This document shows positions 2,995-54,433 of a stretch of 54,944 nt of DNA, piece after piece. The notes below the pieces were generated by a model that saw only the letters and a program-made list of their open reading frames with translations, was not told the DNA's origin and did not search any database. The stretch lies in assembly GCA_020832345.1 (NCBI GenBank), contig JAFIEY010000225.1, positions 1 through 54,944 on the forward strand. The letters are read 5' to 3'. The translations under genes were made by a program, and so were the position numbers. Positions within the stretch are counted from its first letter, which is position 1. Each line of letters starts with the position of its first letter. This DNA is from Cryomorphaceae bacterium. Lineage in GTDB: Bacteria > Bacteroidota > Bacteroidia > Flavobacteriales > Schleiferiaceae.

Positions 2995-3125
2995 GAGTCC
3001 ACTCTAAAAAGGATGATTTCAATCAAAATCGACGCGGAGTGGATTTTTGAACCGGAGCAAGTGAGGATTCAAAAATCTACCGACAAGGAAGATTTTGGCA
3101 GAAAGGGACTTTTTAGAGCAGACTC
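2995..3125 (-). repeat. MITE-like element, copy C (long form, inner palindrome deleted)
   Basis: Reverse orientation, beginning GAGTCCACTCTAAAAAG and ending with the complement of GAGTCTGCTCTAAAAAG. It is flanked by a perfect 6-bp direct repeat AAATGT (2989-2994 and 3126-3131). Compared with copy A it lacks about 11 bp at the centre, the CTAACCAGCTGTT palindrome, while the outer arms are kept. It sits just after the pyrE stop. Confidence 0.88.
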
Positions 3126-3172: not shown

Positions 3173-3307
3173 GCGGCCACGCTAAAAAGGATAATTTCAA
3201 TCAAAATCGAGGGGATTTTTGAACCGGAGCTAACTAACTGTTAGTGAAGATTAAAAATTTACCAACAAGGAAGATTTTGGCTGAAAGGGACTTTTTGGAG
3301 CAGACCC
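3173..3307 (-). repeat. MITE-like element, copy D (diverged long form)
   Basis: Second long copy 47 bp after copy C. The termini are diverged (GCGGCCACGCTAAAAAGG and GGAGCAGACCC), but the interior matches well, including GATTTTTGAACCGGAGCTAA and AAGGAAGATTTTGGC. Flanks ATTATT and TTATTT share TTATT with a one-base shift. It is probably an older insertion than C. Confidence 0.78.
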
Positions 3308-3414
3308 TTATTTCAAGGGCAACAAAATACTTATGATAAAACCAAAAAAAAAGTGCGTCAAAAACCTCAACTTTGGTATATTCGCACCCTTATTCAGTAA
3401 AAAGAAAATATTGT

Positions 3415-5610
3415 ATGGCAACGCTGGAAAAAATCCGTAAACGCTCAACTTTACTCCTCATTACCATTGGTTTGGCAATGGGAGCCTTTATATTAACCGA
3501 CCTACTCGGATCGGGTGATTCATTACTACGTGGCAATCAGTTGCTCGTGGGAAAAATCGATAATCGCAGCATTGAACTGCCGGAGTTCAGTCAAATCATC
3601 GACGAACGCATCGAAGGCTATAAATCTCAATCCGGTGACATGGCCCTTGAAAATGTATCAAGAAAGCAGTTCGCCGACGTTGTTTGGGAAGAACTCATTC
3701 GCGAAGCAGTTCTTTTACGCGACCTAAAAAAGGTTGGAATTACCGTAAATGATGATGAACTTTACAACCGCATCATCAACAACTCAGAAATTCGTCAAGC
3801 CCCTGTTTTTAAAGATGAACTCAGCGGACAATTCAGTGAAGCTAAACTCCAAAACTACCTTTTGGAACTCCGCGAGCGCAGAAATGACAATGTGGAGGCC
3901 CGTCAATTCTGGAATCAATGGAAAACCTTTGAAAAAAGTATCGCTGATGAAGCACTTAAAAACAAATACGAAACTGCCATCACTCTTGGACTTTACAAGC
4001 CTGAAGCACTCGCAAAATTCAACTTTCACCTAACAAATAGGTCGAGGAGCTTGGATCTTGTCCCTATTTTGTATTCCAGCATTGAAGATGATAAGGTCAC
4101 CGTAACAGAAGCCGACTTAAAAAAATATTACAAAGAAAACAAAAGTGATTTTGCCATCGATGAAGGCTACAGAAATTTTGAATTTGTATCCATCGAAGTT
4201 GCGCCAAGTCAAGAAGATCGCCAGGCGGTCATCGATGAGTTAATGAAATTTACCGAACCCCAAATCGTTTTCAACCAAAGAACCAGAGAAAACGACACCA
4301 TTCCCGCTTTTTCTGATGCCGTTGACGATTCAGTCTATGTCGCCATGCGCAGCGATTTGCCAATGGATATGAAATATTATCGCGAAGCCTCCGGATTCAA
4401 CCTCGAGTTTGATTCCATAGTATTTTACGGAAAAGTAGGCGATGTTTTTGGCCCATACGAAGACAAAGATGGTTATATCAAACTTAGTAAAGTAAGCGAA
4501 ACTGCCTTTCTTCCGGATTCTGTTAAAGCCCGTCACATCCTTATTTCCTTTCAGGGCGCCGAGCGTTCCGAAGCCACACGCACATTCCCCGAAGCAAAAG
4601 AATTAGCCGACAGCATTTTGGAAGTATTGCAAAACGACCGTTCTCTTTTTGATTCCTATTCAACCGAAAACAACGACGATCCCACTGCCGCAACAAATGG
4701 TGGCGACCTGGGATGGTTTACCGATCGGGTTATGACCCCAAAATTCTCCAACTTTTGCTTTACCAATCGGGTTGGTGATCTCGGATTGGTGCAAACCGAA
4801 TTTGGATTTCACATCATCGAAATCACCGGACAAGAAGGAAGTACCAAAGGTGTTCGCGTAGCGAGTATTGCCCGTGAGCTTATCATCAGTGAACAAACCG
4901 ATAACGAAATTTACAACAAAATTTCAAAAATTGCCGAGTCAGCTGGAGACCCGGAAAAATTTCAGGAAATGGCACAATCTTTAGGTGCGCAAATCCGTAC
5001 GGCCAACAATGTACACATCTTTGACGAAAACATCATCGGTTTGGGACGTGAACGCGATATAGTTCGCTGGGTTTTCGATAAAGATCGCAAAGTTGGTGAT
5101 GTAATGTTGCACCGCTCCAATGAAAACAGCTATGTAGCCGTTCACCTTACCGATAAAGTTGATGGCGACTACGAACCTTTCGAATTGGTTCGTGAAGATA
5201 TAGAGGATAAAGTCTTTAACCAGAAAAAGGCCGCTTACATCAAGGAATTATTGCAGCCACTTATCGAAAGCCACGGAAATGATTTGAACGCCATTGCCCA
5301 AGCGATGAACGCCACTTCATCTAATGTAACCGTAGTTTTTTCGCAAAACAATATCGATCGCGCCGGACAAGAACCCAAAGTAGTTGGCGCCATTCACGGC
5401 ATTCCAGAAAACACCCCCTCCATCCTAGTGGGCGATGTGGGCGTGTATGTTGCCCTAGTAGCTTCTACAACAGAAGCGCCTGACCAAGGTGTTTACGACG
5501 ACGAGAAGCAAGCTTATATAGATAATATCCGCGGCAAAGTTCCCAACGGCATCATCACCAGCAAACGCGAAAATGCCAAGATAAAAGACAACCGTCACAA
5601 ATTCTTTTAG
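3415..5610 (+). CDS. Peptidylprolyl isomerase, PpiD/SurA-type folding factor
   Basis: Membrane-anchored periplasmic chaperone that helps envelope and outer-membrane proteins fold. From ATG 3415 the protein is 731 aa: one N-terminal transmembrane helix (about residues 12-30), a SurA-N-like helical region (about 45-220), then a parvulin (PPIC) domain at about 370-470 starting at VKARHILIS and containing GGDLGWF and EFGFHIIEI. The frame opens at 3373, but ATG 3415 gives the conserved MATLEKIR start. A possible promoter (TATATTCG) lies just upstream. A strong hairpin terminator follows, so it is probably monocistronic. Confidence 0.85.
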   Translation: MATLEKIRKRSTLLLITIGLAMGAFILTDLLGSGDSLLRGNQLLVGKIDNRSIELPEFSQIIDERIEGYKSQSGDMALENVSRKQFADVVWEELIREAVLLRDLKKVGITVNDDELYNRIINNSEIRQAPVFKDELSGQFSEAKLQNYLLELRERRNDNVEARQFWNQWKTFEKSIADEALKNKYETAITLGLYKPEALAKFNFHLTNRSRSLDLVPILYSSIEDDKVTVTEADLKKYYKENKSDFAIDEGYRNFEFVSIEVAPSQEDRQAVIDELMKFTEPQIVFNQRTRENDTIPAFSDAVDDSVYVAMRSDLPMDMKYYREASGFNLEFDSIVFYGKVGDVFGPYEDKDGYIKLSKVSETAFLPDSVKARHILISFQGAERSEATRTFPEAKELADSILEVLQNDRSLFDSYSTENNDDPTAATNGGDLGWFTDRVMTPKFSNFCFTNRVGDLGLVQTEFGFHIIEITGQEGSTKGVRVASIARELIISEQTDNEIYNKISKIAESAGDPEKFQEMAQSLGAQIRTANNVHIFDENIIGLGRERDIVRWVFDKDRKVGDVMLHRSNENSYVAVHLTDKVDGDYEPFELVREDIEDKVFNQKKAAYIKELLQPLIESHGNDLNAIAQAMNATSSNVTVVFSQNNIDRAGQEPKVVGAIHGIPENTPSILVGDVGVYVALVASTTEAPDQGVYDDEKQAYIDNIRGKVPNGIITSKRENAKIKDNRHKFF

Positions 5611-5628
5611 ACTTAAAAGCTGAATAGA

Positions 5629-5659
5629 CAAAAAAGCCTCCCGAAAAGGAGGCTTTTTT
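5629..5659 (+). terminator. Rho-independent terminator after the PpiD-type gene
   Basis: Stem GCCTCC/GGAGGC (5636-5641 with 5648-5653) with a 6-nt loop, followed by six T. A matching A-run lies on the left side, so it could also work on the minus strand. Confidence 0.85.
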
Positions 5660-5811
5660 ATTGGTCCTAAACAAAATACGATTCCTTTGGCTTCTTTGGG
5701 ACAACAACGGTAACTGCATAAAAAAAGCAAATTGAATATTTGAGAAGAACCAGTTTAGTCCAAATCCCCAGTAAATTCAAAAGTTGTACTGTATCTATTT
5801 ATTTTTTTGCG

Positions 5812-6008
5812 CCTGCCGCCCTATAAAAATATCAGACATAGTATAGATTTTTGTACAGGGCGTCACCGGGCCGTCCGCTTATAGCCGCAGTCACCGGGAC
5901 TACAGTGGATGGGGCGTACGGGGTCTGCCTCGTTCCTCTGCAGCCTCCGCCGCCCACACCACTGTAAGTCCCTTGTGCCTGCGGGCTATCGCTCCCGTCC
6001 CTGGCGCG
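5812..6008. other. G+C-rich folded intergenic element, possible structured RNA or dispersed Bacteroidota element
   Basis: Gene-free and compositionally foreign: I count 79 G+C in the 120 bases 5881-6000 (66%), well above the neighbouring genes. A first hairpin pairs GCCCTATAAAAAT (5818-5830) with ATTTTTGTACAGGGC (5847-5861). A second, long imperfect stem pairs 5880-5908 with 5959-5989 (TATAGCC with GGGCTA, GGGACTACAGTGG with CCACTGTAAGTCCC), and the intervening loop folds again. The outer framing, CCGGGCCGTCCGCTT on the left and GCTCCCGTCCCTGGCGCG on the right, resembles short G+C-rich intergenic elements I remember from many Bacteroidota genomes whose role is unknown. No convincing protein is encoded in it. 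Confidence 0.6.
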
Positions 6009-6065
6009 AGATTACGCACCTTCGATACTTTGCGGTTATTTGCCAAATAAAACTATTGTCAAACC

Positions 6066-6106
6066 AAAAAAAAACTGCCCCCGGATTTCATCTCCAGAGG
6101 CAGTTT
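6066..6106 (-). terminator. Terminator after the 1936-aa secreted protein
   Basis: Read on the minus strand: AAACTGCC plus CTGGA pair with TCCGG plus GGCAGTTT across a GATGAAA loop, followed by a run of T. It ends 25 bp beyond the stop of the minus-strand gene. Confidence 0.75.
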
Positions 6107-6130
6107 GATGGTCGTAAGTTTGTCACTTAA

Positions 6131-9100
6131 CTATTTTCCAATTACCACTCTTCGTGTAATAATTCCATCACGGTTATTTATTCGGAGCATATATGCACCC
6201 GAGGCCAAATCACCGCGATCGAAAGTTTTACTGTAAGTGCCACTAAAGGTTTTCTTGTGTTCCATCCAAACGACCTTTCCACTGAGGTCCAAAAGTTGAA
6301 TGGTTACATCATCCACAGTGTTTTGCTCAAATGTAAGCGTAAAAACACCTTGATTTGGATTGGGGAATACCTTGAGACTAGCGGCTAAACCATGTGTGTT
6401 GACAGAAACATTTTCAGCCCATACCCACTGGCAGGTTGTATCGTTTCCACAAAGACCGTAGGCAACGAGACACACCTCAAAGCTGTCCGTGCGGGGAAAT
6501 TGGTAACTGACAGTATCGGTATTAAACGTAAGTGTATCTATAAACCAGTTCACACTATCAGCATTGTGGCTCGTGTTATAGAAGTTAACCGTATGACTTA
6601 CTTCATCGAAATCAAATGAGGCTACAATGGAATCACTTGCAGGTGTGGGCGAAACTGGTGTCCTGATATCAGAGCATGATTCAGACCCGTAATGCACCAA
6701 ACCTTTCCAGCTTCTCGGTGAAAGGGTAGAGCCAAAAAGTCCAGCTTTTGTTACCCCCGTCAGAATTTCCAGGTCGGCATTGGAGCCGAGACTAGAGCCT
6801 AATGGATTTCCTGAAGCATAACTGATATTTCCGGTAATCGGTTGAATATAGATTCCGTATTCTTGACCTGCCGCAAGGAATAGTGGTGTGGACAGGTTAA
6901 ATTTCACCGGGGTTGCTGCTCCCTGTAAATTCACGTTTTGAACAGTTTCAACCAATGTCCAAGAACCCGAATTATTTTCATGTCCTTGAAGCGAACCTAC
7001 CTTATAATAAACCGCAACATCCGTCATTCCGATACTGGCACCATACATGGTAAAACCGGTGATGGAAAGGGAAGTAAATATATCTAAGTCAAACATATTC
7101 CCTCCATTTCCAGTTTGCACATTCCCGGTTGCAGTAGAAGCCAAACTATCTTTGAGGTCACTGTATGCGAGATAATATGTAAGTCCACCTGCCGTCGGCA
7201 CGTTTATAGAATCACCAATATGAAAGGGTGTTCCACCCGTGGCCACATCATACCAGTTGTAGATTAAATTGGGGAAAGATCTTCCTTTGACATACATGGA
7301 ATCTGTTCCCGGACAAAAGAATGCATCTTCAGCATCGGGTTGGAATGGGATTACTACCATGCTGTCCAAACGCAAGGTGTCATTTGAAGTGAGTTGATCA
7401 CCGGGCAAACTGGTAAATGCTTCCACTGAGACCCAGCCTCCCCAATAAGAATTAAAAGTACCGACCACAACGGTATCAACCTCATTTTCGAGCAAATTGC
7501 CAGTATAAGTAAAGTTGATGATTTGATTGTAATCACCAGATAAATTAACCGTAATGGGCATACTGGTAATGGGGTTAAATCCATTATTTCGGATTTCCAC
7601 AATCACTTGCATGGTACTGTCACCACACTGCATATCCTCAGGAGAAATAATGCTTACCATCTCAGCGTCATCTTCAATGGGCACGCATATTTCGATGGGT
7701 TGTGACCAGTCGCTGTAGCCACCGGAAGGACATTTTTCGCGAATGAATACACAGACACATTCTCCCATCGGAAGATTGGGTAGTTGATAATTTGAGCTTG
7801 AGGTAACTACAGAGTCCAAATTTCCAAAACCTGAACCCGGCGTAAATCCACAAACATCCCATTCAACTTGCCATTCATTTACGGGTGCAACACTAGTCCA
7901 AGACAAGGCTGAACCGCCAGGAAATAAGGTGTCAATTGTAATATCATACGCGCCTGAACAAGGCAATGGATCAAACTGGAATACACCGGGATCTGGTGTA
8001 GTTGTTCTTGCCACACCTTCAATATCCGTAGGAACATCTCCTAAAACATTAGCACCAACACCTTTCACGGCGCCAACCGTAGGGCGATAGGCATCATTTC
8101 CCGTTCCCCCTACAAATACCGGATCGGCTTCCAGTCCGTTTGGATCAAATCCGTTAGATTGCCAGTCGGCAAAATCCGTAATGTCTGATCCGTGATACCC
8201 AAATGTCATGGCACTGGGATCCGGAGTATGGAATACGTTGTTGTCATAGTCAATCGACGCTCCTGCATTGAGCATGTGGATGTAATAACCTGGAGCTGAA
8301 GATCTGTCAAGGTAGAAAATATTGTTTTTTACCTCAAAATTATTTTGCGCACCCGAGAAGTACATCAACCGGGTTGCAGAAGATGAGGACGCGTTAGGTT
8401 GATCTAAAATCACCGTATTGTGGTAAAATTTCCAATGATCATTTAAAGCACCAAGTATATAAAGCAAATAAATGGTTCCCCCGTTATTGATGTTGTAAAA
8501 GAGGTTATTGGCGAAAATACTCGGACTAGCTGCCGTTGCGGTTGCACTCGACATATACAAGGGATAAGCTGCGTTGGTCGTAGTGGTATTCTGGGTGCTA
8601 TTGTCGTGGATACGGTTATTGATGACCTGACAGCCAGCATTTCCCTGTGTTAGGAAGATACCGTAGAAAGTGGACAAGGTTGTCCTGCCTCCTCTGGAAA
8701 TATCATTTCCATCAATGACCAAACTATCTTGCGAACGCAAATACATTCCGTAGAAATAAAAATCCTCAAACGTTGAGTTGATAACTTTATTACCCACATT
8801 TCGTTGTGCCGAACTCACACCACTCATGGTGATTCCATAATAACCTCCAATATGAACATTGTTTTCAAAGGTATTGTAGTTACCAATATCACCACCTAAG
8901 GTTCCCGAAGTTGGGCTACCACTCATGACCACATTTGAAAAGTTGAGGGATGTTGAGTTGTCATCCGTTTCAAAATGGCAATTTTTAAAGGTGTTGTGAT
9001 TTGCATCATTTGACACAGTCATTACCCAACCAAAAGAAGCGCCATTGGCTTCTACTCGTAAACTATCAATGGTTAAATAATCTGTTCCATTTATGGCGAG

Positions 9101-11941
9101 CGTTGTTCTATCCGCAGTTCCGGAAGCCGAATAGCTCAAAGTATTGCCATTTCCGTTAAGGGTAATGGTATTTGTCGCAGATGCACCGTTTACTTCCTGG
9201 AACTCAATCTGCTCATTATAAGGCCCTGATCCCGGTGCTACATTAGCTACCACTGCGCCACAAACGCCAAAATCATTTAATGCCTCGGCAAATTCTTCAA
9301 AACTTGTAAAATTGGTGGCAGAAGGTGCGGAAAGTTGGTTGATGGTAAATGTCCCGGACAGCCCTGCGCGATATCCCATTAAATCCATGGAATTATTGGT
9401 TATATCTAAATCAACACCCGGATAAATACTGTCAATCGTGGCTTCAATATCGTACATTCCAGTGCCGGAAACCGTAAAGGTGCCCAAGTTTATGTCGATC
9501 ATATTGCCCGGATAAAAAGAATCCGTTACCACTACTGGTGTTTGTGCCACATTATTTATTGACCAAATAACGCGAATGGTTTCTACTGTATCAGAGGCGA
9601 GGTTGTTGACCCGAATTATTACATCTTCTGTACCCGGACATCCGGCGGAAGGACTTTGATAGCTCATGATGGCCATGTCGGCTCCTTGTGGGGGTTCAAA
9701 CTGATAGGCGCCGGGATCCGGTGATGAAGGCCGCGGTGTGCCATCAAAATCCTCATCCACATACGTCAATACATTATCGCCAATAAACTTAATGGCCGAG
9801 TTCTGCGGACGCAGTGAGTCAATGGACAATCCAACAAAAAATGGATCTACGTGAACAGCATTTTGATCAAAGGCGCCACTATTTACAGACTGCCAGTCCG
9901 ACAAATCACTTTGGTTGCTGCCGGAGTATCCTATGTGAACATTAGAACTCGACAAATCAGGGAAATAATAGGCATTTCCTTCAATATCTATATTTGCGCT
10001 GGCATTGTTTAAATATACACCATGGATTTGCCCTGTGCCAGGACGATCAACATAAATAAGATTGTTTTTAAACTCGAGATCATTACCCGTACTGGTGTGA
10101 TAAAACACCTGAGTTAGGTTGGTTGCTGATGTGGAAAAATCAAGGGCAAAGGTATTGTGGTAAACATACCAATTACTGCTATTAAAGTTGTAGATACCAT
10201 AAAAACCACCCTGATTATCCATGTTATAAATGAGGTTGTTGGCAATAATGTTTGGCGCATTGGCCGAACCGTTTGCCGAACTCATATAAATCACATAATT
10301 TGTACTTGTATTAGTGGAACCTCCTGTTCCGGTATGAAAATCCCGAATTTTATTACCCATAATTCTTGCATTGGTCAATCCGGTGAAAAACTGAAAGGCA
10401 CGGTGGAAGGTATGATCTGCACGGTTTTCACGGTGGATATCATTACCCGATAATACCAAGCTATCCTGTGCACGTACATAAAATCCATAATACCTCCAAT
10501 CTGCCAGTTCGTTATTGATAAAGGTATTTCCGACTTCCATATCTGCCGCACTTGCTCCATTTATAGTCACTGCGTAATAACCACCTTCAATTAGGTTGTT
10601 TTCAAAATGGTTGTAACTTCCCGAAGGCCCGGCAATGGTGGGTGATGTTGGACTATTTGACATCACAATATTGGAAAAAAGTGATGAAGTTGAGGTCGTA
10701 CTACTCAAAAACTCGCAGTTTGTGAAGGTATTGTGGTCGGCATTATTGGTAAGGTGTAAAGTCCATCCGTAAGTAGCGCCTGTAGCTTCAATTTTCAGGT
10801 TATCTATGGTAATCCAATCTGTGCCGTCAAATGTAAGCGTGGCTCGGTCATTAATCCCTCCACTATGTGCAAGTGTATTGCCATTTCCATTTATGGTAAT
10901 GGTATTTATTGCACTTACATTGCTGACTTCGGGTGCAATAACATGCTCGTTATACGGCCCCGTGCCAGTAACCACGTTTACGGTAACGGGGCCACCAACA
11001 CCGCCACATTCCAGTGCATCAAAGAAATCCTGAAACGATTGAAAATTGGTTCCACCTGCCGGAGCATTTTGATTGATGGTATAGGTTCCACTTAAGGGAG
11101 CGCCCACGGCATTTACTTGAATTGGCAAGCTGGTATCAGAGCCGTTCCCACAAAATACGATGGCACGGTAAAAAGTTGTATCATTAATGGAAACAGTTGT
11201 AGAAGCAGTTGTGTCCCCGGGAAGATTCATCCAGGTTGTACCGTCCAGAGAAACCTGCCATTGGTAAGTTTGCCCCAGACCAAAGGTCGCACTGTCTAAT
11301 GACAAATCTGTAGTGTTCCCAATACACACTTCCGTTTCAGAAGCAGCAGTAAAACCAGCGATTGGGGGATCTGTACATGGACCGGAAAAAATATAGGTTA
11401 CACTGCCCAAAAACTGTCTCGGGTGAAACGTTGGTGAAGGGGCTCCTCCTCCGTATCCGTAATTGGTTCCTGTTTTTATGGTTATGGTCGCATCGGAAAA
11501 TTGATCGGGTGTACCTGCATGCGTTTGATATCGCATACCTCCACCAATAAAGAATCCAACATCCGTATTAGCAGGGATTGTCAAACTGTAATTTCCCGGG
11601 ATGGGGACTGGCGTTGTATTATTTCCCGTGACCGCTTGACCCGTAACCAACTGAACCCATCCATTAGCAGCGGTTATGTTGGGGGCGACACCTGTTGCAT
11701 GCTGAACTCCACCGATTCGATACCAAATATCCGCAGACTGAACTCCGGTATTAAAGGTATTGGCGATTTCTGTAACAATAATCGATGCAGAAGTGGAGAG
11801 CTCAAATGTTACACCTGATTGGCCATTATTAGCCGTAAGGGGTGGAGAAGTCGTTACGGTGAATTGTGCGTTTGAAGCAAACAATCCCAACACAACCAAC
11901 ACTATAGTTGTCAAAATTTTTGTAGTTTTCACTTTCATCAT
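6131..11941 (-). CDS. Giant secreted beta-helix protein with type A T9SS sorting domain
   Basis: A 1936-aa extracellular or surface protein exported by Sec and then the type IX system. Order: signal peptide (1-26); N-terminal beta-sandwich (about 27-188); Ig-like segment (about 189-280); right-handed beta-helix module 1 (about 285-750, with repeated N-asparagine turns such as NNADHNTFTNCEF); CARDB-like linker; beta-helix module 2 (about 865-1325); FN3-like domain (about 1327-1420); further CARDB- and Ig-like domains; a PKD-like domain near 1790-1850; and a C-terminal sorting domain (last about 78 aa, starting VFPNPNQGVF and ending RRVVIGK). Beta-helix folds are common in polysaccharide-binding or cleaving proteins and adhesins, but no catalytic site is evident. 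Modules 1 and 2 are clear internal duplicates. Related to the next minus-strand gene. Confidence 0.85.
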   Translation of the reverse strand: MMKVKTTKILTTIVLVVLGLFASNAQFTVTTSPPLTANNGQSGVTFELSTSASIIVTEIANTFNTGVQSADIWYRIGGVQHATGVAPNITAANGWVQLVTGQAVTGNNTTPVPIPGNYSLTIPANTDVGFFIGGGMRYQTHAGTPDQFSDATITIKTGTNYGYGGGAPSPTFHPRQFLGSVTYIFSGPCTDPPIAGFTAASETEVCIGNTTDLSLDSATFGLGQTYQWQVSLDGTTWMNLPGDTTASTTVSINDTTFYRAIVFCGNGSDTSLPIQVNAVGAPLSGTYTINQNAPAGGTNFQSFQDFFDALECGGVGGPVTVNVVTGTGPYNEHVIAPEVSNVSAINTITINGNGNTLAHSGGINDRATLTFDGTDWITIDNLKIEATGATYGWTLHLTNNADHNTFTNCEFLSSTTSTSSLFSNIVMSNSPTSPTIAGPSGSYNHFENNLIEGGYYAVTINGASAADMEVGNTFINNELADWRYYGFYVRAQDSLVLSGNDIHRENRADHTFHRAFQFFTGLTNARIMGNKIRDFHTGTGGSTNTSTNYVIYMSSANGSANAPNIIANNLIYNMDNQGGFYGIYNFNSSNWYVYHNTFALDFSTSATNLTQVFYHTSTGNDLEFKNNLIYVDRPGTGQIHGVYLNNASANIDIEGNAYYFPDLSSSNVHIGYSGSNQSDLSDWQSVNSGAFDQNAVHVDPFFVGLSIDSLRPQNSAIKFIGDNVLTYVDEDFDGTPRPSSPDPGAYQFEPPQGADMAIMSYQSPSAGCPGTEDVIIRVNNLASDTVETIRVIWSINNVAQTPVVVTDSFYPGNMIDINLGTFTVSGTGMYDIEATIDSIYPGVDLDITNNSMDLMGYRAGLSGTFTINQLSAPSATNFTSFEEFAEALNDFGVCGAVVANVAPGSGPYNEQIEFQEVNGASATNTITLNGNGNTLSYSASGTADRTTLAINGTDYLTIDSLRVEANGASFGWVMTVSNDANHNTFKNCHFETDDNSTSLNFSNVVMSGSPTSGTLGGDIGNYNTFENNVHIGGYYGITMSGVSSAQRNVGNKVINSTFEDFYFYGMYLRSQDSLVIDGNDISRGGRTTLSTFYGIFLTQGNAGCQVINNRIHDNSTQNTTTTNAAYPLYMSSATATAASPSIFANNLFYNINNGGTIYLLYILGALNDHWKFYHNTVILDQPNASSSSATRLMYFSGAQNNFEVKNNIFYLDRSSAPGYYIHMLNAGASIDYDNNVFHTPDPSAMTFGYHGSDITDFADWQSNGFDPNGLEADPVFVGGTGNDAYRPTVGAVKGVGANVLGDVPTDIEGVARTTTPDPGVFQFDPLPCSGAYDITIDTLFPGGSALSWTSVAPVNEWQVEWDVCGFTPGSGFGNLDSVVTSSSNYQLPNLPMGECVCVFIREKCPSGGYSDWSQPIEICVPIEDDAEMVSIISPEDMQCGDSTMQVIVEIRNNGFNPITSMPITVNLSGDYNQIINFTYTGNLLENEVDTVVVGTFNSYWGGWVSVEAFTSLPGDQLTSNDTLRLDSMVVIPFQPDAEDAFFCPGTDSMYVKGRSFPNLIYNWYDVATGGTPFHIGDSINVPTAGGLTYYLAYSDLKDSLASTATGNVQTGNGGNMFDLDIFTSLSITGFTMYGASIGMTDVAVYYKVGSLQGHENNSGSWTLVETVQNVNLQGAATPVKFNLSTPLFLAAGQEYGIYIQPITGNISYASGNPLGSSLGSNADLEILTGVTKAGLFGSTLSPRSWKGLVHYGSESCSDIRTPVSPTPASDSIVASFDFDEVSHTVNFYNTSHNADSVNWFIDTLTFNTDTVSYQFPRTDSFEVCLVAYGLCGNDTTCQWVWAENVSVNTHGLAASLKVFPNPNQGVFTLTFEQNTVDDVTIQLLDLSGKVVWMEHKKTFSGTYSKTFDRGDLASGAYMLRINNRDGIITRRVVIGK

Positions 11942-19054: not shown

Positions 19055-19191
19055 GAGTCCACTTCAAAAAAATATGATTTCAATCAAAATCGAGGGGATT
19101 TTTGAACCGGTGCTAACCAGCTGTTAGTGAAAATTCAAAAATCTACCGCCAAGAAAGATTTTGGCAGAAAGGGACTTTTTAGAGCAGACTC
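19055..19191 (-). repeat. MITE-like element, copy E (long form)
   Basis: Long form in reverse orientation, starting GAGTCCACTTCAAAAAAA and ending with the complement of GAGTCTGCTCTAAAAAG, with an intact core CTAACCAGCTGTTAG. It sits between nhaC and comEC and ends 2 bp from the comEC stop codon. The flanks show no clear target duplication. Confidence 0.86.
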
Positions 19192-22141: not shown

Positions 22142-22225
22142 GAGTCCACTCTAAAAAGGATGATTTCAATCAAAATCTAATGACAAGGAAGATTTTGGCA
22201 GAAAGGGACTTTTTAGAGCAGACTC
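22142..22225 (-). repeat. MITE-like element, copy F (84-bp form)
   Basis: Medium form in reverse orientation, between the start of the SpoIID-like gene and the stop of lpxB. The termini are intact. The interior hairpin is removed so that CAATCAAAATC joins nearly directly to GACAAGGAAGATTTTGGC. Flanks ATCTAG and ATCTAA match at 5 of 6 positions. Confidence 0.86.
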
Positions 22226-30207: not shown

Positions 30208-30343
30208 GAGTCCACTCTAAAAAGGATGATTTCAATCAAAATCGAGGGGATTTTTGAACCGCAGCTAACCAGCTGTTATTGAAAATTCAAAAGTCTATCA
30301 ACAAGGAAGATTTTGGCAGAAAGAGACTTTTTAGAGCAGACTC
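30208..30343 (-). repeat. MITE-like element, copy G (long form)
   Basis: Long form in reverse orientation with a perfect 6-bp flanking duplication ATTTTT (30202-30207 and 30344-30349). It occupies the shared upstream region of the divergent genes starting at 30105 and 30412, so it could affect either promoter. Confidence 0.88.
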
Positions 30344-38309: not shown

Positions 38310-38393
38310 GAGCCTGCTCTAAAAAGTCCCTTTCTGCCAAAATCTTCCTTGGCGGTAGATTTTGATTGGAATCATCCTTTTTAGATTGGAATC
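38310..38393 (+). repeat. MITE-like element, copy H (84-bp form)
   Basis: Medium form 5 bp after the marR-type stop, flanked by a perfect 6-bp duplication AATTTT (38304-38309 and 38394-38399). The right terminus is slightly diverged (TTTTTAGATTGGAATC). Same internal deletion as copies F and J. The left duplication overlaps the last base of the stop codon. Confidence 0.86.
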
Positions 38394-44149: not shown

Positions 44150-44204
44150 GAGTCTGCTCTAAAAAGTTCCTTTCTGCCAAAATCTTCCATTTTGGAGTGG
44201 ACTC
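44150..44204 (+). repeat. MITE-like element, copy I (55-bp form)
   Basis: Minimal form: left terminus and CCTTTCTGCCAAAATCTTCC joined directly to the right terminus GGAGTGGACTC. Flanks AATATT and AATAAT match at 5 of 6. Directly after the right flank comes another terminus-like stretch, GAGTCCACATAAAAAAA (44211-44227), running into the tRNA terminator. Confidence 0.8.
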
Positions 44205-48617: not shown

Positions 48618-48701
48618 GAGTCTGCTCTAAAAAGTCCCTTTCTGCCAAAATCTTCCTTGTCGGTAGATTTTGATTGAAATCATCCTTTTTAGAGTGGACT
48701 C
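48618..48701 (+). repeat. MITE-like element, copy J (84-bp form)
   Basis: Medium form 9 bp after the PorP/SprF stop with a perfect 6-bp duplication AGTTGT (48612-48617 and 48702-48707). The termini are undamaged and match the consensus, suggesting a recent insertion. Its right end lies immediately upstream of a -7 box (48710) and could supply the -33 region. Confidence 0.9.
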
Positions 48702-54297: not shown

Positions 54298-54433
54298 GAG
54301 TCCACTCCAAAAAGGATGATTTCAATCAAAATCGAGGAGATATTTGAACCGAAGCTAACTATATGTCAGTGATAATTCAAAAATTTACCGACAAGGAAGA
54401 TTTTAGCTGAAAGGGAATTTTTGGAGCAGACTC
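54298..54433 (-). repeat. MITE-like element, copy K (long form)
   Basis: Long form in reverse orientation, termini GAGTCCACTCCAAAAAGG and the complement of GAGTCTGCTCCAAAAA. Flanks AATATT and AATGTT match at 5 of 6. It ends 4 bp before the stop codon of the truncated gene at 54438. The 460-bp gap 53835-54297 before it holds no gene I can support. Confidence 0.84.

Follow-up and report, generated by a model that had tools for sequence, protein, structure and literature searches.

Locus and anatomy of the element

In the window, i.e., the whole stretch of 54,944 nucleotides analyzed here (Cryomorphaceae bacterium, contig JAFIEY010000225.1 of assembly GCA_020832345.1), a folded element lies between two convergent genes, which encode a SurA/PPIC-type peptidyl-prolyl isomerase on the + strand and a beta-helix protein on the - strand. 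The features are as follows.

3373-5610, + strand: SurA/PPIC-type peptidyl-prolyl isomerase gene, start uncertain (context)
5630-5659, + strand: terminator-like hairpin ending in T, behind the upstream gene (context, outside the element)
5802-5808, + strand: T tract adjoining the left end (sequence; T enrichment at -5/-4/-3)
5809-6007, + strand: whole element, three-way junction P1-P2-core-P3-core-P1' (23 own-genome copies and fold)
5809-5813, + strand: P1 5' arm GCGCC (fold; last two positions Watson-Crick in 121 of 137 anchored elements)
5814-5821, + strand: P2 5' arm TGCCGCCC (fold, covariation)
5822-5857, + strand: P2 loop of 36 bases, with sequence and length varying among copies (copy alignment)
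5858-5865, + strand: P2 3' arm GGGCGTCA (fold, covariation)
5866-5879, + strand: left conserved core CCGGGCCGTCCGCT (copy alignment, edge pattern)
5880-5989, + strand: P3 long hairpin, 5' arm approximately 5881-5909 and 3' arm approximately 5960-5989; the arm that differs between lineages (fold, covariation)
5990-6002, + strand: right conserved core CGCTCCCGTCCCT (copy alignment, edge pattern)
6003-6007, + strand: P1 3' arm GGCGC (fold, pairing)
6072-6106, - strand: terminator-like site behind the downstream gene (terminator scan; context, outside the element)
6131-11941, - strand: beta-helix protein with Por_Secre_tail (context)

The boundaries were set by comparing copies and give a length of 199 bp, within 3 bases of the interval 5812-6008 that an earlier note, made from the sequence alone, had marked as a G+C-rich, strongly folded element in a gene-free gap. 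The G+C content is 65.0% over 5880-5999 (the note had counted 66% over 120 bases), compared with 35-38% in the nearest clear windows (5700-5819 and 6060-6179). The two consecutive hairpins that the note described are found as P2 (5814-5821 with 5858-5865) and P3, the larger stem of which it had placed at 5880-5908 with 5959-5989; the fold adds an outer stem that it did not list, P1 (5809-5813 with 6003-6007), which closes both hairpins. The + strand RNA fold of 5809-6007 has an energy of -93.4 kcal/mol (z = -5.0), and the - strand DNA fold has a z of -7.4; in each case, 0 of 200 shuffles were as good.

The element lies between two terminator-like features: the + strand hairpin at 5630-5659 was not flagged by the terminator scan, and the site at 6072-6106 was flagged, by a scan that yields 2 sites versus 2.3 in shuffles. 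The same isomerase gene is present in the congener G003 (L235), where the start of a short-type element lies directly behind the terminator and is followed by the contig end; no left edge was seen behind the orthologous gene in the other three of the four congeners (G001, G002, and G004). The right-hand genes differ at the isomerase site of the congeners, so there is no clean empty site for the window element.

Dispersed copies, base pairing, and Flavo-1

A BLAST search with 216 bases of the window gave 40 places in the own genome, the window included, at an E value of 4.1e-7 or better (40 of the 50 first-look candidates were scored) and one further match of 14 bases at an E value of 9.2, i.e., 41 matches in total. 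A pattern of the two edges that ignores the middle gave 37 own-genome matches, with 0 for the reversed-pattern control, and the union of both searches comprises 48 places, several of them at contig ends. The copies fall into two main types, type A with P2, to which the window copy belongs, and type B without P2 (GGGCGCC-AATTC-GGGCTATCC). The apical part of P3 is conserved among the own-genome copies and may serve a sequence-specific function. P2 and P3 plus the right flank reassort among these copies: L024/L026 and L011/L020 have P3 and the right flank in common and differ in the P2 loop and the left flank, and L012/L022 have P2 in common up to the left end and neither flank. The paralogous flank of L013 occurs in two copies, both of which contain the element. 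Among 60 relatives, five match at an E value of 0.01, i.e., the own genome, three of its four congeners, and a single other genus from the same family.

Base pairing is preserved across the copies, as counted after eleven locus ids repeating a place were dropped (likewise for the orientation and wobble counts below). One core pair joins N, a position within CGGGCTNTCC, to N', which precedes ATCCC; it is of Watson-Crick type in 177 of 179 distinct elements, whereas shuffling of partners yields 62 on average and 84 at most. The patterns used restrict N to A, G, or T and place no constraint on N'. With the left end chosen blind to the right, 121 of the 137 anchored elements have Watson-Crick pairs at both the fourth and the fifth position of P1 (shuffles: mean 30.5, maximum 48; 42 elements have no anchor), and the P1 types include GCGTT, GCGTG, GCGCC, GCGGC, and GCGCA. 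Both sets of shuffles ignore relatedness among the elements. From the 23 type A copies of the own genome, RNAalifold predicted 48 pairs, with two-sided changes at 19 of them (50 cells) and one-sided changes at 4 (14 cells); compensatory changes, by which the earlier note had proposed to judge its long stem, are thus abundant. Dispersal and pairing of a modular mobile-type DNA element are well supported.

The edges read as the earlier note wrote them, and the framing that it described for many Bacteroidota recurs in 11 of 395 Bacteroidota genomes (the own genome included; reversed control 0). All 11 belong to the same order, and none outside that order was found in the 395-genome sample, i.e., by this strict pattern the element has a patchy distribution. 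In named genomes, at least 118 stretches match the two-edge pattern; among the matches listed, 72 of 80 are labelled Bacteroidota (Flavobacteriia, Bacteroidales, Chitinophagaceae, Saprospiraceae, and others), and the other 8, labelled Spirochaetes or Clostridiales, all come from metagenome bins and may reflect binning errors.

The known relative is the Flavo-1 RNA motif (RF01705), which is included in the table of Weinberg et al. 2010 (PMC2864571) and, in the table of a 2022 review (PMC9029176), stands among the abundant sRNA families with no function given there. Of 14 loci selected by their edges, 9 have a gathering-level Flavo-1 match coinciding with the element, in every case on the other strand than the + pattern strand; the other five (L062, L063, L077, and, from the own genome, L079 and L083) have none. 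The window element itself lies below the Flavo-1 gathering score (42 bits), and the window has no match; in the own genome, where 150 of the 848 candidates were scored, 0 matches were obtained. Over 5600-6130, 33 sub-threshold Rfam matches up to an E value of 10 were seen, none above its own gathering score and none to Flavo-1. Assignment to another Rfam family was rejected, as only a tRNA in the window reaches gathering level. The window copy nevertheless matches the edge pattern and has the same cores as the gathering-level Flavo-1 matches, i.e., the edges (with AGCGGA and GGGAT as their cores when read on the opposite strand), the base of P3, and a base-paired covarying core are common to both. 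On the other hand, the window copy is GC-rich and unmatched by the model, and P1 and P2 are absent from the base pairs of the Rfam model as aligned here. It is thus a relative of Flavo-1 and not a formal member, i.e., the element is a GC-rich, newly seen variant of a known but functionally unexplained motif. No description of Flavo-1 as a mobile or dispersed DNA repeat was found in the parts of the open-access literature covered here.

Several observations accompany these copies. The own genome (4.0 Mb) is approximately 1.4-1.7 Mb larger than those of the four congeners (2.3-2.6 Mb), and it gives 14 matches to its own element versus 0, 4, 7, and 1 in those of the congeners (G001-G004) in the same search, with a query taken from the own genome. 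Partly common right flanks adjoin the element in L011, L012, L016, L018, L020, L022, and L028, and by eye, the opposite strand of these seven flanks contains short cysteine-rich open frames running towards the element, which are possibly a peptide family or chance. Right of the element in L078 (G300), there is a tandem array with a unit of approximately 120 bases that repeats the right end of the element, CATCCCTAACGC, several times. L071 (G386) and L162 (Epilithonimonas tenax) both have the palindrome CATACTATATATATAATARGTATG within 200 bases left of the element; their flanks are 79% and 82% similar, with the stem ends of P3 kept and the loop not.

Probable arm exchange and the nature of the conserved molecule

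The middles of the element are unrelated between lineages, and they also differ at a single site upstream of tgt in the genus of F. saccharophilum (L121; the genus of the other genomes is inferred from this synteny). The tgt flank is matched by 146 of 150 genomes, and the best 30 of the 146 loci were taken, 29 of them new. Among these 29 best-matching loci, 13 species have an element with recognizable edges, always in the same orientation, three loci (L245, L249, and L270) retain remnants only, and no element was seen at the other 13. The middles at this site are several unrelated hairpins, including a CTTTTG type of P3 (for example, L065, L261, and, with one change, L248), a TTCCCGATTAACAAAAAC type (L062, L258, L264, L267, and L121, with small changes), and a short AAGTCCTCGCAC type (L246, L263, and L265). 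In the clearest pair, L062 and L065, the flanks are.93 and.94 identical and P2 is.90 identical, whereas P3 is.43 identical, which is the level of unrelated pairs in the same comparison; both genomes contain the P3 type of L062 at other places as well.

Such a pattern suggests that dispersed copies probably trade arms through their common edges, by recombination or gene conversion, a reading that is moderately supported. Repeated independent insertion is a serious rival, in which the site upstream of tgt is a preferred target and each species has received its own copy. It would account for an element there in 13 of 29 further species at the best-matching loci, all in the same orientation, for a left flank that is T-rich in general, and for the two groups of bases behind the right end (AAACGG-like and AAAAAGAC-like). 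However, six species with different or decayed middles have AAACGG or AAACAGG directly after the right end, which favors one old insertion with later arm exchange, and the P2 and both flanks common to L062 and L065 also argue against a hot spot; we consider independent insertion rather unlikely. The site offers no clean empty counterpart, as the element-free species differ in the left flank too.

If arms are exchanged, three orthologous sets argue against frequent exchange: homologous P3 arms are kept in L154/L165 and in L088/L092/L130, and the stem ends of P3 are kept in L071/L162. The exchangeable middle proposed by the earlier note agrees with the differences between lineages and at the tgt site; these three sets keep theirs wholly or in part, and P3 is so well conserved within the own genome that the middle is less exchangeable there than the note implied.

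The earlier note had left a choice among a mobile element, a recombination site, and a structured RNA, and the evidence favors dispersed mobile-type DNA. Among 114 elements scored for the orientation of the adjacent genes, 31 are convergent, 29 and 29 tandem, and 25 divergent, which is close to even and weakens a cis-acting RNA (a further 53 were unscorable, and 12 lie inside long ORF calls, some of which are probably spurious in GC-rich DNA). Wobble pairs were counted in two ways, both of which recount related copies. In the loose count, for which the aligner treats G-T and A-C alike, P3 has 278 G-T and 273 A-C among 5538 stem positions, and P2 has 39 G-T and 59 A-C; as controls, 231 terminator-like hairpins give 251 G-T and 152 A-C, and the acceptor and T arms of 18 tRNAs give 12 G-T and 0 A-C. 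The strict count, which is limited to positions between two Watson-Crick neighbors, gives 122 G-T versus 87 A-C for P3, similar to 126 terminator-like hairpins (70 and 43), and 7 G-T versus 31 A-C for P2, which leans to the other strand. The evenness of the loose count pointed against a transcript, but P3 behaves like the terminators once only the strict positions are counted, and the wobble pairs overall favor neither DNA nor RNA.

The rival reading is a structured non-coding RNA, the category in which Rfam files Flavo-1; it would be transcribed, act in trans or in cis, and be multicopy by happenstance. The strong structure and covariation agree with it, as do the filing of the relatives as sRNA and the mild G-T excess of P3 on the + strand in the strict count, at the level of terminator-like hairpins; moreover, Flavo-1 matches in F. 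psychrophilum fall together with several structured 5' transcribed regions, as reported in PMC9723704. The same paper, however, places Flavo-1 matches indistinctly in sense or antisense and many of them outside transcribed regions. The lean of P2 to the other strand, the even loose count of P3 beside the 12 versus 0 of the tRNAs, the even orientation to genes, and the unrelated P3 arms at the one site upstream of tgt also speak against an RNA, which we regard as unlikely. With even orientation, dispersal, and arm exchange taken together, DNA is the likelier substrate; i.e., what is kept is probably folded DNA rather than a transcript, a conclusion that is moderately supported.

Ends, possible mode of spread, and comparison with known elements

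Eight near-identical type B copies of the own genome (pairwise core identity of.90 to.99) have left flanks that differ up to GGGCGCC, with the exception of L040/L298, in which approximately 13 further bases left of the left end are similar. Right of GGGCGC, the eight copies have 1 to 43 bases in common, and three of them reach a contig border no more than 33 bases from the right end. Over 174 rows, T precedes GCG at -5/-4/-3 in 75/68/57%, followed by GG, and the sequence further left is AT-rich; the right end stands out clearly only by purines at +1 (86%) and +2 (73%). These end-composition rows (174 and 175) include the eleven repeated locus ids. No target duplication was seen by eye in three of the eight copies (L038, L039, and L299). 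A fixed left end, a variable right end, and no visible duplication fit single-strand transposition better than cut-and-paste, as judged from few copies. We thus tentatively suggest that the element spreads by single-strand or hairpin-recognizing transposition with an enzyme supplied in trans, the left end (GGGCG after a T/A-rich stretch) being fixed and the right end less precise; this mode of spread is weakly supported.

The enzyme might be a RAYT (TnpA_REP), with the element being of REP type, or the element might derive from IS200/IS605. Single-strand folding, the fixed left side, and the lack of a target duplication in the copies inspected would agree with this, and Y1_Tnp matches occur in 13 of the 14 genomes examined, all of which belong to the element-bearing set. 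However, the flanks of approximately 1.5 kb around 30 Y1_Tnp loci (38 matches in the 14 genomes) contain no element, and G002 (88% complete) has elements and no Y1 match. The sole PF01797 match of the own genome (E = 0.01; L041:1501-1794, contig C99) is broken by two in-frame TGA stops, and the RAYT/Y1 link is unsupported on these grounds. In addition, the element is 199 bp here and approximately 90-200 bp overall, versus 20-40 bp for REP palindromes (PMC3733652). We consider a REP-type origin quite improbable. A copy of the GAGTCCACTC repeat lies at approximately 1674-1800 of L041, where the PF01797 reading frame breaks.

Retrons contain an msr-msd region whose topology resembles P1-P2-P3. 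Under a retro-type origin, reverse transcription of an RNA from the opposite strand would give a fixed 3' end (the left end) and a variable 5' end, as the common left and variable right ends of the copies would have it. On the other hand, the own genome has two RVT_1 matches, one of which is by eye a group II intron type protein, and neither locus has an element, i.e., no reverse transcriptase adjoins the structured region there; the reverse transcriptase link is thus unsupported, and no such enzyme was recognized by eye among the recurrent neighbors. This origin is very improbable.

Other candidates did not fare better. A hidden transposase was sought by clustering 706 ORFs near elements; among the 25 largest clusters, those listed hold 3-5 loci each and, on inspection by eye, consist of orthologous loci, reading frames within repeats, and proteins of housekeeping type, without a recognizable mobility gene. 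Insertion behind terminators shows no clear preference (12 of 162 left ends and 5 of 161 right ends versus 22 of 461 in the control). No autonomous copy with a gene between the edges was seen among the loci examined for it, in which only L147 has a left edge with a later right edge within 4 kb, at a distance of 283 bases. An attachment site gained little support: only 4 viral contigs (IMG/VR, L325-L328) carry the edge pattern, and one Flavobacterium-type query had no match in plasmid or phage records. The pattern begins no more than 131 bases (L325) and 22 bases (L327) from the start of two of these loci, where a host flank or an attachment site is possible.

Single-strand-acting transposition is one part of an overall reading towards which we lean slightly, namely, that the element is a non-autonomous, structure-defined dispersed DNA repeat, of a superfamily known to Rfam in part as Flavo-1, with arms swappable between copies. 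The fixed edges pair with each other, so that a single strand can fold into a three-way junction with two arms (P2 and P3), and the pairing is preserved through two-sided changes. The P2 and P3 arms are probably swapped between dispersed copies by recombination or gene conversion via the common edges, and copies may spread through a single-strand- or hairpin-recognizing transposition by an enzyme supplied in trans. A broader proposal, which we find conceivable without expecting it to hold in full, is that this is a widespread shape-defined mobile DNA whose interchangeable arms are swapped in place and which spreads from one fixed end by a single-strand-acting enzyme, and that the catalogued, abundant "sRNA" motif is that element. 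If Flavo-1 is DNA, its annotation in many genomes would be wrong in kind; Flavo-1 is filed as an sRNA, whereas the element is read here as dispersed DNA. In-place arm exchange with mostly two-sided changes would provide a natural system for the evolution and recombination of imperfect palindromes, and the combination of fixed left and variable right ends gives the hunt for the mobilizing enzyme a concrete starting point.

The element resembles several known classes and differs from each in some respects. Similar to REP elements and REPINs with their RAYT, it is dispersed, folded, and mostly intergenic, but it is longer, forms a three-way junction, and was not seen next to a Y1 gene. Integron attC sites have R boxes (GTTRRRY/RYYYAAC), an integron integrase, and conserved ends around a middle that is structurally conserved and variable in sequence. 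The element has the conserved ends and variable middle in common with them; however, its copies are mostly solitary and scattered, P1 is not restricted to GTTRRRY, and no integrase was recognized by eye among its recurrent neighbors. As with MITEs, it is short, non-coding, multicopy, and mostly intergenic, but its sole terminal repeat is the 5-bp P1, no target duplication was seen in three copies, and its arms vary while its ends stay.

Another short repeat occurs in approximately 10 copies in the window, with inverted ends GAGTCCACTCYAAAAAG / CTTTTTRGAGCAGACTC and lengths of 55, 82-84, and 131-137 bp (124-205, 2995-3125, 3173-3307, 19055-19191, 22142-22225, 30208-30343, 38310-38393, 44150-44204, 48618-48701, and 54298-54433). 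Its ends give 21 matches with up to 3 mismatches versus 0.23 expected. Some copies, for example 48618-48701, have apparent direct repeats of approximately 5 bases at their borders, by which this repeat looks like a classical MITE, and the GAGTCCACTCYAAAAAG / CTTTTTRGAGCAGACTC repeat is also found in many of the own-genome stretches examined.
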